Shown here: in pieces, positions 2,692-60,910 of the stretch | How positions within the stretch are numbered: position 1 is the stretch's first letter | Layout: every line of letters begins with the position of its first letter | Assembly (NCBI RefSeq): GCF_030913655.1 | Contig: NZ_CP133189.1 | Location: 1,488,001 to 1,552,000, forward strand | Direction: 5' to 3' | DNA from: Clostridium sp. MB40-C1 | GTDB taxonomy: Bacteria; Bacillota; Clostridia; Clostridiales; Clostridiaceae | Length of the DNA: 64,000 nt | The notes under the pieces: model-generated | The model's input: only the letters and a program-made list of their open reading frames with translations | What the model was told of the DNA's origin: nothing | Databases searched by the model: none | Made by a program: the position numbers and the translations under genes

Positions 2692-4050
2692 ATGAATATA
2701 ATAAAATACGATAAATTAAAAAACAATCCTAATTCAAACTCCTTCTTTATTTCTACATTCGGTTGTCAAATGAATGAGGAAGACTCTGAAAAAATATCAG
2801 GATTGTTGAAGGGATTAGGATGCAGCAGAACTTCTGTTCGTAAAGAAGCTGATATAATAATATTTAATACTTGCTGTGTAAGAGAAAATGCCGAGCAAAA
2901 AGTATTTGGTCACATAGGAGAATTAAAACACTTAAAAAAAGCAAACCCTAACTTAATAATTATAATTTGTGGTTGCATGACTCAGCAAAAAGGGATGCCA
3001 GAAAAAATCATAAAGAAATTTCCTTATGTGGATATAATAGTTGGAAGCTTTAATTCCTATAAACTTCCTGAATATATAGATAGAGTGAAAAAAGACGGTA
3101 AATCTATAATAGAAGTTTGGGATAAAGAAGATGGCATAATAGAAGGATTGCCTATTGATAGAAAAAGTGATATAAAAGCTTTTGTAACAATAATGTATGG
3201 ATGCAATAATTTCTGCTCTTACTGTATAGTTCCATATGTTAGAGGTAGGGAAAGAAGTAGAAAACCAGAGGATATAGTCAATGAAATTAAAGATTTAGTA
3301 TCAAAAGGTTATAAAGAAATCACGCTTCTTGGTCAAAATGTTAATTCTTATGGTAAAGGCCTTGAACCTGAAATAACTTTTCCAAATCTTTTAAGAATGG
3401 TAAATAAAATAGATGGTGTTGAAAGAATAAGATTTATGACATCTCATCCTAAAGATGTATCAGATGATTTAATAAAGGCCATAGCTGAATGTGATAAAGT
3501 ATGTGAACATGGACATTTTGCATTACAATCAGGTTCTACTAAAATTCTTACAGAGATGAACAGAAAATATACTAGAGAAAATTATTTGACTTTAGCTAAA
3601 AAACTTAGAGATAACATACCTGATGTAGCAATTACTACAGATATAATTATAGGTTTCCCTGGAGAAAGTGAAGAGGACTTTGAAGAAACCCTAAGTATAG
3701 TAAAAGAAGTAGAATTTGACTCTGTATTTACATTTATATATTCTATAAGAGAAGGTACACCAGCTGCAAAACTTCAAGCTCAAGTTCCTGATGATATTAA
3801 GCATAAAAGATTTAATAAATTGGTAGAAGCCATAAATGAAATAGTAGAAAGAAAAAATAAAGAATATGAAGGAAAAGTTGTTGAAGTTCTAGTAGAAGGA
3901 GCTAGCAAAAATGATGAAACTAGACTTACAGGTAGAACAAGAAACAATAGATTAGTTAATTTTAACGGAAGTCCTGAAAATATAGGAAAACTCGTTAATG
4001 TAAAGATAGTTAGAGCTCAGCCATTCTCATTAATTGGAGAAATAGTATAA
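2692..4050 (+). CDS. miaB: tRNA-2-methylthio-N6-dimethylallyladenosine synthase
   Basis: A radical-SAM methylthiotransferase of 452 residues that adds a methylthio group to i6A37 of tRNAs reading UNN codons. All expected features are present: an N-terminal MTTase domain with cluster cysteines C25, C61 and C95 ([21 protein letters not shown]); the radical SAM motif C171-x3-C175-x2-C178 in [13 protein letters not shown]; and a C-terminal TRAM-like region (about 385-450). The start ATG 2692 has GGAGG nine bases upstream. MiaA, which makes its substrate, is encoded downstream at 8970, separated by mutS and mutL. A perfect terminator palindrome follows at 4166. Confidence 0.97.
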
Positions 4051-4217: not shown

Positions 4218-6962
4218 GTGGGGTTAACTCCAATGATGCAACAATATCTAGAAGTAAAAGATAGAAACAAAGACTGCATAATATTTTTTAGATTAGGTGA
4301 TTTTTATGAAATGTTTTTTGATGATGCAGAAATTGCAGCAAGGGAACTAGAACTTGTTTTAACAGGTAGAGATTGTGGTCTTGAAAAAAGGGCTCCTATG
4401 TGTGGAATACCTTATCACTCTGCTAATTCCTATATAACACGTCTTGTAAATAAAGGTTATAAGATAGCTATATGTGAACAGTTAGAAGATCCATCAAAGT
4501 GTAAAGGTCTTGTAAAAAGAGATGTTATTAAAATAATTACTCCTGGAACTTACTCTGACTCAAATTTTTTAGAAGAAACTAAGAATAATTATGTTATGAG
4601 TTTATTTATAGAGAATAATAAAGTGGCTATGAGTTTTGCAGATGTATCTACAGGAGACTTTCAATGTACTTTTTCAAATTATGATACTACAACTGTCTTA
4701 GATGAGATATCTAAATATACTCCAAAGGAAATTATTATACAAGACAATATAGACAATAAACTTCTCCAATCTATAAAAGAAAGATTTCAAGTTTCCTTTA
4801 CTTCTCGTCCTATAGATTATTTTAATGAGAATGCAGAAGAAAATTTAAAAAGACAATTCAAAAATTTCGATTCTATAAATTTTGATGTTGTTTTACTACA
4901 AAGTTGTAATGGTCTTTTAAATTATATACTAGATACTCAAAAAACTATTCTTACACATATTGATACTATTGAATATTACCATATAGTTGATTACTTAAGT
5001 ATAGATATTAATTCTCGTAAAAACTTAGAACTTACAGAAACTTTAAGAGATAAATCAAAAAAAGGTTCTCTTCTTTGGGTAATAGATAAGACTAATACGG
5101 CTATGGGAGGAAGACTCCTCAGAAAATGGGTAGAGCAACCTCTTATTCAAAAAAACTCAATAGATAAAAGATTAAATGCAGTACAAGAAATCATAGAAAA
5201 AAATTATTTATATGAAGAATTAAAAGAACAACTTATAGATATCTATGATATAGAAAGATTAGCTGGAAAAGTTTCTTCTAAAAGCGTAAATGCTAAAGAA
5301 CTTCTATCTTTAAAAAATTCTATAGGAAAAATTCCTAAAGTAAAAGATCTTTTAAAAGGATTTGATAGCTCTCTTTTAAAAGAAATATATAATAAGTTAG
5401 ATTGTCTTGAAGATATCTTTAGTCTTTTAGATAAATCTATTTCTTATGAACCTTCTTTATCAGTAAAAGAAGGAGGGATAATAAAAGATGGATATAATAA
5501 AGATGTAGATGAACTAAGAGAAGCAAAAGCCCATGGTAAAGAATGGATTGCCAATCTTGAAAATACAGAAAAAGAAGTTACAGGAATAAAATCTTTAAAA
5601 ATACGATATAATAAAGTATTTGGATATTATATTGAAGTTACAAAATCAAATTTAAACCTTGTACCTGATGGAAGGTATATAAGAAAGCAAACTCTAGCAA
5701 ATTGTGAACGATATATAACCCCTGAATTAAAAGAAGTTGAAGATAAGATATTAGGAGCACAAGATAAATTAATCAATCTTGAATATGATCTATTTGTAGA
5801 GATAAGAGAATCTATAGAAAAAGAAATAGACAGAATGAAATTTACTGCAAAACTTATTTCTGAAGTAGATTGCTTATGTTCCCTAGCTATTGTAGCTCTT
5901 GAAAATAATTACTGCAAACCAGAAATAAAAGAATTTGGTGAACTATATATTGAGGAGGGAAGACACCCTGTAGTTGAAAAAATGCTTCCAAGAGAAAGCT
6001 TCGTATCAAATAATACAACTATTAATAACGAAGATAATCAATTGATTTTGATTACAGGACCTAATATGGCAGGTAAGTCTACTTATATGAGACAAGTAGC
6101 TTTAATTAATATTTTAGCTCAAATAGGTAGCTTTGTACCTGCACAAAACGCTTCTATAGCTATATGCGATAAAATATTCACAAGAATAGGAGCTTCTGAT
6201 GATTTAGCTGGCGGTAAAAGTACATTTATGGTTGAAATGTGGGAAGTATCTAATATATTGAAAAATGCAACCAATAGAAGCCTTATATTATTAGATGAAG
6301 TAGGTAGAGGTACTAGTACTTATGACGGATTAAGCATTGCTTGGTCAGTAATAGAGTATATATGTAATAACCCTTCTTTAAAATGTAAAACATTATTTGC
6401 TACTCATTATCATGAGTTAACTTCTCTAGAAGATAAAATTTTAGGTGTTAAAAATTACTCAATAGCTGTCAAAAAACTTGAAGATGATATAGTATTCTTG
6501 CGAAAAATCGTAGAAGGCGGTGCAGATGAATCATATGGAATAGAAGTAGCAAAGCTTGCAGGTATACCTGAAGATGTAATAGATAGAGCAAGATCAATAC
6601 TTGAAAGTTTAGAAAATGGGAACTCAACATCTTCTAATATCGTGTGTACAAAGAACAGCTATAATACTAACATGATTACACCAAAAGAAGAATTAAATAT
6701 AAAAGAAACAGCCCTTTCCTCAATAGAAATAGAAAATGAAATTAAAGATATTAAAAACGAAGAAACACTTAAAATAAATTCTTTAGAAAAAAATAAAATA
6801 AAAGAAAAAAAATCTAATACCGCTATGCACCAAATAGGGTTTTCTGATATAGGAAAAGAAACCTTATTGAAAGAAATAGCCTCTATTGATATCTTAAAAA
6901 TGAATCCAATGGAAGGTTTTAATAAATTATATGATATAATAGAGAAAGCTAAGGCATTGTAA
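4218..6962 (+). CDS. mutS: DNA mismatch repair ATPase MutS
   Basis: A 914-residue protein that recognises base mismatches and small loops, starting with GTG at 4218 behind AAAGGAGG (N-terminus [14 protein letters not shown], typical of clostridia). The mismatch-contact motif FYEMFF lies near residue 30, the Walker [10 protein letters not shown] near 613-622, and the Walker B/D-loop [11 protein letters not shown] near 690. The segment from about 795 to 875 is a Lys/Glu/Asn-rich, poorly conserved linker before the short C-terminal oligomerisation helix. mutL begins 18 bases downstream, so the two repair partners are co-transcribed. Confidence 0.98.
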
Positions 6963-11642: not shown

Positions 11643-11686
11643 AAAAAACAGCTGTGAGAAGTAAAACTTCTCTCTAGCTGTTTTTT
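11643..11686. terminator. Bidirectional terminator between the PLP enzyme gene and lexA
   Basis: A long stem with arms AAAAAACAGCT ... AGCTGTTTTTT and an inner GAGAAGT/ACTTCTC stem lies between the convergent genes. T runs on both strands fit termination in both directions. Confidence 0.88.
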
Positions 11687-12293
11687 AGTACCTCCTAAAT
11701 AAACCTACAACCTTACCAATGATCTTGCAATCATTTACTATTATAGGTTCCATAGACTTGTTTTCTGGTTGAAGTCTAATGTGATCTTTTTCTTTAAAAA
11801 ATCTTTTTACTGTAGCTTCATTTTCAATTAACGCTACAACAATTTCTCCATTTTCTGCATAATTTGCTTTCTCTATTATTGCTAAATCTCCATCTAAAAT
11901 ACCAGCATCAATCATACTTTCTCCTGAAACATTTAGCATAAATAAATCCTTATTGCTCGGCATAAAATTTAATGCAATAGGAAAAGTATCTTCTATATTT
12001 TCTACAGCTAATATTGGTTCACCAGCAGTTACTTTCCCCACAATAGGAACGCTAAGCATTTCTTTTTTTATAGGAGGATCTTTTAAAATTTCTATAGTTC
12101 TAGGCTTAGTAGAGTCTCTTCTTATCATGCCTTTTTTCTCTAATTTTGAAAGATGCCCATGAACTGTAGACGTAGAACTCAATCCAACTCCTTTGCATAT
12201 CTCCCTTACAGAAGGTGGGTATCCTTTTTGGAGAATATGTTTTTTGATAAATTCGTAAACTTCCATTTGTTTCTCCGGCTTACTTTTGCCCAT
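11685..12293 (-). CDS. lexA: SOS transcriptional repressor LexA
   Basis: A 202-residue repressor. The winged HTH occupies about residues 1-65 ([20 protein letters not shown]), and the autocleavage peptide bond is A90-G91 in GKVTAGEP. The catalytic Ser126 (SGESMID) and Lys163 (TVKRFF) are present, so RecA-stimulated self-cleavage should work. The start at 12293 is preceded by AAGGGAGGTG. Its promoter overlaps a LexA-box-like sequence, indicating autoregulation. recA lies about 8 kb away with a matching box. Confidence 0.97.
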
Positions 12294-12320
12294 ATCTATG
12301 CACCTCCCTTTTTAATTTGA

Positions 12321-12349
12321 ATTATATCATATATTTCCAAAAATATCAA
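12321..12349 (-). promoter_or_regulatory. lexA sigma-A promoter
   Basis: On the minus strand TTGATA (12349-12344), a 17-base spacer and TATAAT (12326-12321) make a near-consensus vegetative promoter 28 bases upstream of the lexA start codon. The -35 element overlaps the LexA-box-like sequence at 12347-12360. Confidence 0.75.
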
Positions 12350-12360
12350 ACTAATGTTCT
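12347..12360. promoter_or_regulatory. LexA (SOS) box candidate, lexA / Cys-rich gene
   Basis: CAAACTAATGTTCT matches the Bacillus LexA-box consensus CGAACRNRYGTTYC at 11 of 14 positions by eye. It overlaps the lexA -35 element and lies just upstream of a perfect rightward promoter for the Cys-rich gene (TTGATT 12367-12372, 17 bases, TATAAT 12390-12395). LexA bound here could therefore affect both genes. Confidence 0.65.
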
Positions 12361-12366
12361 TAAAAT

Positions 12367-12395
12367 TTGATTATGTTCATTTATTCTGATATAAT
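12367..12395 (+). promoter_or_regulatory. Sigma-A promoter of the Cys-rich protein gene
   Basis: TTGATT, a 17-base spacer and TATAAT on the plus strand, 33 bases before the start codon at 12429. It lies back to back with the lexA promoter. Confidence 0.7.
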
Positions 12396-12428
12396 ACCTT
12401 TGGAATACTATTAAAGGAGATTTATAAT

Positions 12429-12821
12429 ATGTTAAAATACTGTATTTTGCAATTAAATAAACCCTGTACCAACTGTGGAGACTGTAATAAATGCGATTTA
12501 AATTCATCAAAAATCTGTAATAACTGTGGAAAATGTTTAAAAATGGAGGGATATGATTCCAAAGCTATCGGAATAGACGAAATCCTAGAAGAAAATTTAC
12601 CTGTAGAAGAAGATTCCACATCAGAAGAATGCAGTAGAGAAGAGTTAATCGAAAAATATGCTAAATATAATTCTAACCTAAAAAATAAAGATATAAAAAT
12701 AGAATACATAGACGATATAGATGGACTTAATGAAGTATTAGGAGAAAGTGAAGATGAAAAGAAATCTATGAAAGAAGTGTTCCCAGGTCTATTTGTATTT
12801 GATAATGATGAAGGGGAGTAA
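12429..12821 (+). CDS. Cys-rich N-terminal domain protein of unknown function
   Basis: A 130-residue acidic protein starting at ATG 12429 behind AAAGGAG. The first 36 residues hold eight cysteines: C5, then C13-C16-C19-C22 spaced every three residues, then C30-C33-C36, an arrangement that could bind zinc or an iron-sulfur cluster. The rest is acidic (Glu/Asp rich) with a possible helix at about 70-85 and a C-terminal EVFPGLFVFDNDEGE. I do not recognise a named family. It is the one rightward gene in a leftward neighbourhood, transcribed divergently from lexA across a LexA-box-like site. Confidence 0.8.
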   Translation: MLKYCILQLNKPCTNCGDCNKCDLNSSKICNNCGKCLKMEGYDSKAIGIDEILEENLPVEEDSTSEECSREELIEKYAKYNSNLKNKDIKIEYIDDIDGLNEVLGESEDEKKSMKEVFPGLFVFDNDEGE

Positions 12822-12846
12822 AGAGCATAAAAATGTTCTTCACTCC
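12812..12846. terminator. Convergent terminator, Cys-rich gene / recombinase
   Basis: An imperfect stem (GGGGAGTAAAGAGCA ... TGTTCTTCACTCCTC) lies across the 3' ends of the convergent genes. The loop is AAAA. There is no long T run, so strength is uncertain. Confidence 0.55.
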
Positions 12847-13826
12847 TCACTTAAAGGATTTAAACTTACAGCTTTTCTCAATGACTCATCATCAACATGA
12901 GTATAAATTTGAGTAGTGGAAACATTCTCGTGTCCTAAAATCTTCTGAAGACTTCTGATATCTACATTCCCATACTTATACATGAGAGTAGCTGCAGTAT
13001 GTCGTAATTTATGTGGAGTATATTTTTCTTTATCTAAACCTGCTTTTTCAAGATATTTTTTCACTAACAATTCGACACTTCTTTTGCTAATTCTTCTATG
13101 GTTTTTACTTATAAATAAAGCATCTTTATCTCCAATATGTATTTTATCATACTTCTTATTTCTAATAGGAATATACGCTTCTATAGACTTCAAGCAAGCT
13201 TTGTTAAGATAAACAGTTCTTTCTTTATTTCCTTTACCAATGATAGTTAAAGTATCCTCTTTAATTCTAGATATATCTATGCTACACAATTCAGAAAGTC
13301 TCAATCCACAATTTAAAAATAAAGTTATTATGCAATAATCTCTTTCTTTGGCTTGTCCATCTATAGAAGAAAGCAGCCTTTTACTTTCATCTAAGGTTAA
13401 GTAAACAGGATTTCTTTTATTTATTTTTGGAGATTCAAGTTCTGAAGCTGGATTTTCTTCAAGTATCTTAGCTTTTCCAAATAAATATTTAAAAAAAGAC
13501 TTAAGAGAGGCTACTTTTCTAGCTCTAGCATAATTTCCATTATTTCTATGATTTTCAGCAAAAGATATAAAAGCGTATAGATCAGATAATTTTATTTTTC
13601 TAATAAAAGCTTTATCAATATCATCAATAGGTATTTGGTCAAAATCCACGTTGGGTTCTGCATAACCTTTATAGAGCTTTAGAAATCTAAAGAACATAGT
13701 TAAATCCCATTTATATCCCTTTATTGTATTGGGGGATTTTCCTTTTATAGTACCTAAATAGTTTAAAAATTCATTTAAATATTCCGGCAAAGTGTTGTCG
13801 TATATTTCTCTTAATGTATAATTCAT
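12840..13826 (-). CDS. Tyrosine recombinase of the XerC/XerD type
   Basis: A complete 328-residue tyrosine recombinase. The SAM-like core-binding domain spans about residues 14-115, and the catalytic domain carries R176 (GLRLSEL), K198 (IGKGNKER), H272 and R275 (HKLRHTAATLM), H299 (LGHENVSTTQ) and the nucleophile Y308 (IYTH). Nothing is missing. The start at 13826 has AGGAGGGG upstream. A perfect 11-6-11 inverted repeat begins 24 bases upstream of the start codon and is its likely target. Xer proteins resolve chromosome dimers at dif. The canonical xerC/codV place between topA and codY is empty in this genome segment. An integrase from a lost element is the alternative, but no element genes adjoin it. 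Confidence 0.92.
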   Translation of the reverse strand: MNYTLREIYDNTLPEYLNEFLNYLGTIKGKSPNTIKGYKWDLTMFFRFLKLYKGYAEPNVDFDQIPIDDIDKAFIRKIKLSDLYAFISFAENHRNNGNYARARKVASLKSFFKYLFGKAKILEENPASELESPKINKRNPVYLTLDESKRLLSSIDGQAKERDYCIITLFLNCGLRLSELCSIDISRIKEDTLTIIGKGNKERTVYLNKACLKSIEAYIPIRNKKYDKIHIGDKDALFISKNHRRISKRSVELLVKKYLEKAGLDKEKYTPHKLRHTAATLMYKYGNVDIRSLQKILGHENVSTTQIYTHVDDESLRKAVSLNPLSEE

Positions 13827-13850
13827 AAACCCCTCCTATTTTTCCTATCC

Positions 13851-13880
13851 AACTTCGCTAAATTTACATTTAGCGAAGTT
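13851..13880. other. Symmetric dif-like / lox-like recombination site candidate
   Basis: A perfect inverted repeat: AACTTCGCTAAA, central TTTACA, then the exact complement TTTAGCGAAGTT. Without the outer base pair it is 11-6-11, the exact layout of bacterial dif (28 bp), and it begins ACTTC as Bacillus dif does. Both arms are identical, unlike XerC/XerD sites. The outer bases also match loxP (AACTTCG ... CGAAGTTAT with the same spacing). It lies just upstream of a tyrosine recombinase and at the point where gene orientation switches. A hairpin terminator is the alternative, but no T run follows and no gene ends here. Confidence 0.7.
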
Positions 13881-14590
13881 ATTTGTGTATTTTTTATGTT
13901 AATTATATACTATTTTTAGTTATATGTAAAATATACTCCCATCGTTACTAATATATATTTATTAAATAGCCACATATTCATTTAATTGTTATGTACTTAT
14001 TACTACTTATAATCAAATTGTATTTTATTTAATATACACAAAATACATTTTCTATAGCGGATATCCTTTAAAATTCCTTTACAAATCATATAAAAAACAA
14101 AAACCTTTGTTTATTTATAAAAAATATTTTTAATTTTAACTTAAACCTAGTTTTATACTTTTAAATTTTACTTTAATTTCACTTTTTATACAAATGGATT
14201 TATTGTTTTATTTACTTTTATGGATAAATATATAAATTATGTCAATTAATTTTCGTTTAATAAGCAATATCTGTGCACATAAATTATCTCCTTAAATTTA
14301 ATATTTGTTTGTATTCATTATTATTTTTAAATCATTATATAATGAATTTTATTGTGTTTTAGTATTTAATATTTATTTATATATTGTGTTATAAAACTTT
14401 TAATACTTATTAGTATTTATTCTTTGTTTATATCCAATATTATTGTATGTTTTGTACTTCCTAATATATATTATTCTTAGATTTATAATATCCAACAGCA
14501 ATAAAAATCATTCTAATTAATCAACCTACATAATTTTTATTTAATACAAAAGAGAGAACAAAAAGAGAGAGCAAAAATATAACAAATAAG
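13881..14590. other. 710-base AT-rich gene-free stretch
   Basis: No open frame with a ribosome site is seen on either strand. The sequence is extremely AT-rich, with many TATTTATT-like runs and no strong hairpin except the purB terminator at its right edge. It contains the upstream region of the recombinase gene only at its left end. Long non-coding AT-rich DNA next to a dif-like site fits a replication terminus region, which is inference. Confidence 0.6.
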
Positions 14591-60611: not shown

Positions 60612-60910
60612 AATTAATCCCTCCTATTATTACTATTAGTATTTAATTTGTTTTTTTAAATATTCATGCTTTTAACATTTATTTTAAGCTATACTCATAT
60701 ATGTTTGCTTTGAAATATTGCTAAATTTTTATTTCCTTATAAAAATTGTTTTATATAAAAAATTAGTGATATTTCAAAGTGAACTAGATGTCTGATTAAG
60801 CTCAAAATTTTAGCATGGTAGTTTACATTTAAATTTTACTTTACATAATTAAAACTATGTCACCATTATTTATGGTTTTAACTGCTGTTACTCTATTTTT
60901 ACATAGTATT
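60612..60910. other. Gap between DUF3892 and the pseudogene
   Basis: No coding frame is visible. It contains, at 60821-60860, one copy of a near-repeat also found at 62039-62078. Confidence 0.5.
60821..60860. repeat. 40-base near-repeat, copy 1
   Basis: GTTTACATTTAAATTTTACT and following TTACATAATTAAAACTATGT closely match 62039-62078 with few mismatches. Both lie in non-coding AT-rich DNA in the decay zone. Confidence 0.55.

Follow-up and report, generated by a model that had tools for sequence, protein, structure and literature searches.

Several dif/Xer systems that operate with a single recombinase have been described. XerL/dif of Legionella and Coxiella combines one recombinase with a site of uninterrupted dyad symmetry, the arms of which measure 10 and 12 bp (PMC9765430). 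The clostridial system proposed here is similar in its single recombinase, its dyad symmetry, its location at the terminus and its use by an integrating element, but in L. pneumophila the xerL gene and the site are more than 400 kb apart, whereas the clostridial site and gene are usually adjacent (PMC9765430). The XerL/dif arms were described as unlike any known Xer motif (PMC9765430); the clostridial system, hosted by the class Clostridia, is set beside XerL by the described features. In XerS/difSL of streptococci and lactococci, thus also within the Bacillota, a single recombinase is likewise encoded beside its site, but the 31 bp of difSL comprise unequal arms around a centre of 11 bp, unlike the clostridial site (PMC5357621). 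XerH/difH of Helicobacter and Campylobacter also relies on one recombinase with a site near the gene (PMC5357621), although difH has only partial dyad symmetry, as is stated for the other single-recombinase sites (PMC9765430). Archaeal XerA/dif shares the single recombinase, the 11-6-11 geometry and arms with very few or no mismatches (PMC2958812, PMC5357621). Finally, XerCD/dif of B. subtilis and E. coli is likewise 28 bp long, organized as 11-6-11 and located at the terminus, but its unequal arms serve two proteins, whereas the clostridial arms are identical (PMC3025954). Near-perfect arm symmetry thus has precedents in XerL/dif (PMC9765430) and archaeal XerA/dif (PMC2958812), and since the XerL site is reported as perfectly symmetric too (PMC9765430), symmetry is not new in itself. 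What is new is the host class, the separate recombinase clade, a site that is both adjacent to its gene and symmetric, the presence of XerD alongside the system and the range of sites with covarying arms.

So far, the resolution of chromosome dimers in Clostridia has been interpreted through the XerCD model. A survey of 2011 predicted a dif in 97 of 100 Firmicutes, the failures being C. beijerinckii NCIMB 8052, C. perfringens 13 and a Lactobacillus (PMC3025954); in another strain of C. beijerinckii, HUN142, we recovered the symmetric site once. Some symmetric sites may be listed as ordinary dif in the tables of that survey (PMC3025954). A description of the symmetric-site system was not found in the open-licence literature searched.

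The site and the adjacent recombinase

The window analysed here, i.e. the whole stretch of 64,000 nucleotides of Clostridium sp. MB40-C1, contains the following features.

13851..13880, no strand: palindromic dif-like recombination site with arms AACTTCGCTAAAT / ATTTAGCGAAGTT and centre TTAC; 28-bp core at 13852-13879
12840..13826, minus strand: tyrosine recombinase of 328 aa, of a distinct clostridial Xer lineage; intact ORF with catalytic residues R176, K198, H272, R275, H299 and Y308
13902..13930, minus strand: consensus-only promoter candidate for the recombinase, TTTACA-17-TATAAT, pattern match 11/12

Direct reading located the 28-mer ACTTCGCTAAATTTACATTTAGCGAAGT at positions 13852-13879 and confirmed the symmetric arms in 11-6-11 geometry that a preliminary description had reported. 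One more A-T pair extends the 28-mer to a palindrome of 30 bp (13851-13880) with 13-bp arms and a 4-bp centre, which is equivalent to 11-6-11. Allowing up to 3 mismatches, the palindrome occurs at a single place in the window (0.00 expected, based on 100 shuffles) and at a single place in the complete genome of 3.89 Mb, for which a reversed-pattern control yielded 0. The site is located upstream of the gene, as had been described, but the gap between the site end and the start codon is 25 bp and not the 24 bases given earlier, which had been counted from position 13851. Two traits of single-recombinase dif/Xer systems are thus found at this locus, namely a single-copy inverted-repeat site (28-31 bp) at the terminus and linkage between the site and the recombinase gene. 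The canonical XerCD composition of one XerC arm and one XerD arm is absent, as both arms are identical. The window arm matches the B. subtilis XerC arm at 8 and the XerD arm at 7 of 12 positions, and we could rule out that the arms represent duplicated XerC arms: over 36 arms the mean match was 6.56 (XerC arm) versus 6.47 (XerD arm) of 12, and over 32 arms 6.66 versus 6.53, so the clostridial arms are no closer to the one than to the other.

The recombinase is complete, as was claimed before, and its six catalytic residues are invariant in all seven aligned sequences. Its scores remain below the curated cut-offs of the established families: 221.4 bits for XerC (TIGR02224, cut-off 335.15, passed by two reference XerC proteins with 359 and 364 bits), 208.1 bits for XerD (TIGR02225, cut-off 329.6, the true XerD of the genome scoring 346.1), and 158 bits for XerS (NF003462, cut-off 267). 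The score for the archaeal XerA family was a near miss (NF040815, 210.5 bits against a cut-off of 220), and the match to XerH (5jjv, E 3.9e-15) was weaker than those to XerA and XerD. In a tree of 29 proteins, in which few other branches were well supported and several rows were long, the window protein fell within a clade of 20 (support 100/99) that is separate from the four XerC and XerD references and from the genome's own XerD. The closest named relative among the matches listed, which may omit the window's own record, was found in Clostridium brassicae (98% identity). The genome contains nine PF00589 matches, among them a XerD above the curated cut-off. A count of Xer homologues, which had been proposed as a check, therefore did not yield a one-Xer genome.

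Several variants of the gene were encountered. The genome of the window also carries a degraded recombinase paralogue with several stop codons (G000:C1:931758-932561, L022). C. aestuarii possesses a second, 62% identical recombinase (G001:C12:363521-364483, L019) at a distance of about 28 kb from the other one. This second gene has a different palindrome of its own, ACGTCGCGAAATATAGATTTCGCGACGT, and so does a homologue on an R. albus plasmid. The idea that the C. aestuarii paralogues lie within a prophage was rejected, as the ORFs around two of them look, by eye, like ordinary chromosome. In some clades (L049 and L051, at 3328-3993; L056, L062, L069) the recombinase is preceded by an extra gene, which had no Pfam match in L049, or else its N-terminus carries a fused stretch that resembles this gene, as in C. 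cibarium, where the fusion yields a recombinase of 456 aa. In these loci the site has moved or is degenerate.

Conservation, arm covariation and core asymmetry

Gene and site were recovered in all eight genomes of the genus, at one place each and with a spacing of 25-26 bp, in line with the expectation of one copy per chromosome that is always beside the recombinase; in G002, where the assembly truncates the gene, the match within a single open frame stops at residue 272. Within a set of 32 further genomes the site was found, within 3 mismatches, in 31 (reversed-pattern control: 1/32). It occurred at a single place in 24 of these, while seven carried further copies that are asymmetric, eight in all, and in the sole miss, G047, the arms have changed.

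To extend the comparison we used the best 80 of 229 relatives found as named loci, and scored palindromes of at least 9/11 pairs with an AAA-N6-TTT core, located at most 560 bp upstream. Such a palindrome was present in 67 of the 80, whereas the same criterion applied downstream of the genes gave 7 matches in 303,466 bases. In three more named loci (L056, L062, L106) a palindrome is located 0.9-3.4 kb upstream, and the remaining 10 showed no convincing upstream palindrome (seven none, three chance-like matches only). In a class-wide sample of 87 loci, one of which was dropped for short flank, 49 of 86 loci had at least 10/11 pairs within 400 bp, versus 0/86 for gene interiors and 1.6/86 for shuffles. 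The core was present in 47 of these 49 and the other two were unrelated palindromes, so that a core palindrome of at least 10 pairs within 400 bp was absent from 39 of the 86. The recombinase itself is wide-spread: at E 1e-70 a relative was identified in 186 of the 293 sampled Clostridia genomes and in 106 of 180 genera, according to the table as a single match in all but four of the 186, while 107 genomes had none at this threshold. The C. carboxidivorans group seems to have lost the clean site; in three of four loci only a degenerate form (ACTTCGC...GCGAAGT) occurs, 748 bp upstream, and a search for a relocated site produced no consistent candidate.

Six faecal records labelled 'Bacteriophage sp.' were fetched as well. 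Four of them (MT839262, MT837697, MT837041, MT837240) look, by eye, like chromosome fragments of gut Clostridia, with queA, tgt and yajC-like genes in three of the four records with listed ORFs, and because of this resemblance they were treated as bacterial loci.

The sequence of the arms varies between clades (e.g. ACTTCGCTAAAT, ATTTCGCTAAAT, ATTTCGGGAAAT, ATTGCGCGAAAT, ATGTCGTGAAAT, ATTATACAAAAT), and the opposite arm changes along. Among 78 distinct sites with 36 left arms, a list derived automatically from 129 loci, every arm position forms a Watson-Crick pair in 71-78 of the sites, with up to four pair types. These pair counts are partly circular, since the sites were collected for symmetry, and the fair test of the palindrome is the enrichment over the downstream, gene-interior and shuffle controls given above. 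The inner 4 bp of the core are variable. Of the 78 cores none is palindromic, against 8.2 expected, and only 8 have a complementary outer pair, against 25.3 expected. However, related sites share cores, and over the 32 distinct cores the asymmetry is marginal: palindromes number 0 where 3.4 are expected (P 0.03), and a complementary outer pair occurs in 6 (P 0.07); a smaller hand-picked list of 53 sites, for which the outer pair gave P 0.017 over distinct cores, is superseded by the list of 78. A core that is never palindromic is what a directional crossover site requires, whereas a hairpin or an operator has no need for it.

Position at the terminus and relation to XerD

Three further features of the window relate to its position on the chromosome, the last two being context outside the symmetric-site system.

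11661..13880, no strand: position of the replication terminus, given by the strand switch and by the point at which cumulative GC skew peaks in the window (11661), at most 2.2 kb from the site
60840..60863, no strand: XerD-type dif-like palindrome, 3 mismatches to TTTACATAATNNNNATTATGTAAA
62059..62082, no strand: XerD-type dif-like palindrome, 2 mismatches

The GC skew changes from positive to negative between 11.7 and 13.9 kb of the window, and the main coding strand switches there too. Judged from 24 stretches sampled outside the window, the skew of the same chromosome has a positive sign that sets in at about 3.17 Mb and continues past the start of the record up to 1.49 Mb, and a negative sign between 1.60 and 2.98 Mb, with one weak stretch on each side (+0.04 and -0.05); the site is located at 1.5019 Mb, and the maximum of the cumulative skew in the window is 2.2 kb away. 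In C. bovifaecis (G002), Clostridium sp. OS1-26 (G040) and C. manihotivorum (G041) the site also lies within a few kb of the switch from plus to minus, although several sampled stretches of the latter two showed the contrary sign. The anticipated position at the skew switch is thereby borne out in four complete chromosomes. Locally, the sign of the skew changes at the gene in 54 of the 70 loci with enough flank; no switch was seen within 4 kb in the other 16, nine of which (L038-L046) belong to C. magnum, C. tyrobutyricum, C. ljungdahlii and others.

A XerD above the cut-off is encoded in seven of the eight genus genomes, the exception being G005, which retains the recombinase and the symmetric site. 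The XerC cut-off was passed in none of the eight; considering that this strict test was passed by only 2 of 14 control genomes, the absence of XerC is weak evidence. A separate canonical dif with XerC and XerD genes had been put forward as an observation that would speak against a one-recombinase system, and half of it applies: a XerD and XerD-type palindromes near the terminus are present, but a XerC above the cut-off is not found in the eight genomes. With the longer XerD-type pattern and at most 3 mismatches, 17 places were found in the window's genome versus 5 in the control, and some of the places must therefore be due to chance. Four of them, with 0, 2, 3 and 3 mismatches, lie 47-64 kb from the symmetric site.

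The four comprise the two palindromes listed above and those at 1437897 and 1441084 (L122) of the chromosome. By eye, they are arranged in mirrored orientation on two sides of the terminus, and each is followed by an A-rich stretch that ends with GTAAACT. An extended motif of fixed spacing common to all four was rejected, as a script run over 291,003 bases found it at only the two palindromes in the window, the spacing being off by a base at the others.

Thirteen of the 80 named loci also have XerD-type palindromes (ACATAA-N6-TTATGT) no more than 3 kb from the recombinase. In nine loci (L078, L079, L082, L085, L090, L094, L096, L100, L107) the palindrome directly follows the recombinase gene, which is thus sandwiched between two kinds of dif-like site. 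Given the proximity of XerD-type sites to the recombinase and the terminus, another Xer reaction at the terminus is possible. XerD has been assigned a further role there, the unloading of SMC (PMC12322038), and the XerD-type palindromes could be XerD sites for SMC unloading or a second dif.

Interpretation and the elements found at the site

Several mobile elements were recovered at the site. In a record of Pusillibacter faecalis a microvirus-like prophage, recognised through PHROGs matches of its capsid, replication and pilot proteins, is situated between two 28-bp sites that are 5.3 kb apart; the intact one, with 10/11 pairs, lies just upstream of the recombinase and the other is degenerate (7/11). 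Filamentous-phage-like elements occupy the site beside the recombinase in two IMG/VR contigs: that of L257 encodes a Zot-family ATPase and a Rep_trans protein (Pfam), and that of L269, with a G2P-type Rep, is located between a degenerate site at 114 (8/11) and a perfect site at 5945. L420 is a weaker third case. Inspection of the gene lists revealed no second recombinase among the listed genes of the integrated elements. The elements resemble those that exploit host Xer systems, and their presence argues for recombination at the site in nature.

Taken together, the palindrome probably serves Clostridia as the dif site at which a single recombinase resolves chromosome dimers. The single place, the adjacency to the gene and the position at the skew switch are as was predicted for a one-recombinase dif-like system, and lend support to the earlier reading. 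From the equal, covarying arms we infer that one protein would bind both arms and recombine them without a second Xer. A dimer of the recombinase encoded beside the site would occupy the two identical arms. On a dimeric chromosome, two sites occupied in this way would come together in a homotetramer, and strands exchanged one after the other across the central 6 bp (T-NNNN-A) would resolve the chromosome into monomers. Because the arms are equal, direction would have to come solely from the non-palindromic core. Location at the terminus would ensure that the last-segregated DNA carries the site to the septum. In this scheme the recombinase is presumed to bind the site and catalyse the exchange, FtsK or SpoIIIE to control it, and the cell to use it for resolving dimers.

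An alternative is that dimers are resolved at the XerD-type sites by XerD, paired with itself or with a partner not recognised as such, and that the symmetric site and its recombinase serve, for example, in decatenation, backup resolution or the control of elements. The prevalence of XerD within the genus and the XerD-type palindromes beside or near the recombinase are in favor of such a division of labor. Yet the best XerD-type sites in the genome of the window are several and lie well off the skew switch, unlike a dif, and they stand out only in part from the control; XerC is lacking above a cut-off that two reference XerC proteins do pass, and the symmetric system is kept in G005, where no XerD exceeds the threshold. 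Moreover, the published function in SMC unloading provides XerD with another task at the terminus (PMC12322038). We consider this alternative unlikely. That recombinase and site constitute a domesticated integration module of a mobile element, whose present role is limited to offering phages and cassettes a place to attach, is very improbable. Phages and cassette-like segments indeed bear such sites and homologues of the recombinase occur on plasmids, but the broad distribution of the relatives, nearly always as one match per genome, and the position at the terminus are at odds with this notion, as is the lack of a second recombinase among the listed genes of the integrated elements, which is usual for exploiters of host Xer.

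The palindrome might also be read as an autoregulatory operator, as an RNA hairpin within the leader of the recombinase transcript or as a transcription terminator. The computed hairpin is strong (-17.6 kcal/mol, z -5.9), a terminator-like match was scanned on the plus strand, and the promoter-like match just upstream (13902..13930) would make the site part of the 5' leader of this transcript; this region, however, contains fewer promoter-like matches than its shuffles, so that the match is no evidence of function. The hairpin, though real on paper, does not account for the fixed length and asymmetry of the core or for prophages that are flanked by two such sites, and no Rfam family was matched. 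In addition, the distance between site and gene varies from 11 to 477 bp, and in L062 and L106 the site persists with other ORFs in between. A terminator only, which the preliminary description had named as a counter-reading, is very unlikely because the arms covary, the core is never palindromic and phages sit at the site; the three readings together are hardly credible.

Beyond the single-recombinase dif itself, a wider scenario may be drawn, which we regard as tentative and somewhat doubtful in its entirety. A third Xer lineage would resolve dimers alone, at a self-symmetric dif, in much of the class Clostridia; the ancestral XerC/XerD site would have been split, with XerD retained at separate palindromes near the terminus for a different task, which may be the unloading of SMC; and filamentous phages, microviruses, tailed phages (with sites beside the terminase genes) and cassettes of small secreted proteins, all clostridial, would independently have acquired the symmetric site in order to dock there. 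If true, a wide-spread one-protein system with identical arms would change the 'XerC' annotation in many genomes and provide a minimal recombination module for anaerobes. It would also account for the places at which certain filamentous phages and microviruses of Clostridia are found, and the way in which an asymmetric core sets direction by itself could be studied on sites with equal arms.

Copies of the site were also observed outside the recombinase locus. In clostridial tailed prophages and phages a dif-like site is located between or beside the genes for the small and large terminase (L373, L376, L377, L378, L381 and, from IMG/VR, L259, L271, L273, L277, L278, L383, L396, L406, L415 and L416), where the terminase was confirmed by profile in L271 and L278 only and otherwise by similarity or by eye; L396 represents the same prophage as L376. 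Five of the eight extra copies in the set of 32 genomes are of this terminase-associated kind. C. cibarium (G018, L136-L142) contains ten dif-like places within 3 mismatches. As judged by eye, several of these combine a constant arm ATTTAGCGAAAT with a degenerate other arm, are found beside genes for small secreted proteins and look like dif modules or cassettes.
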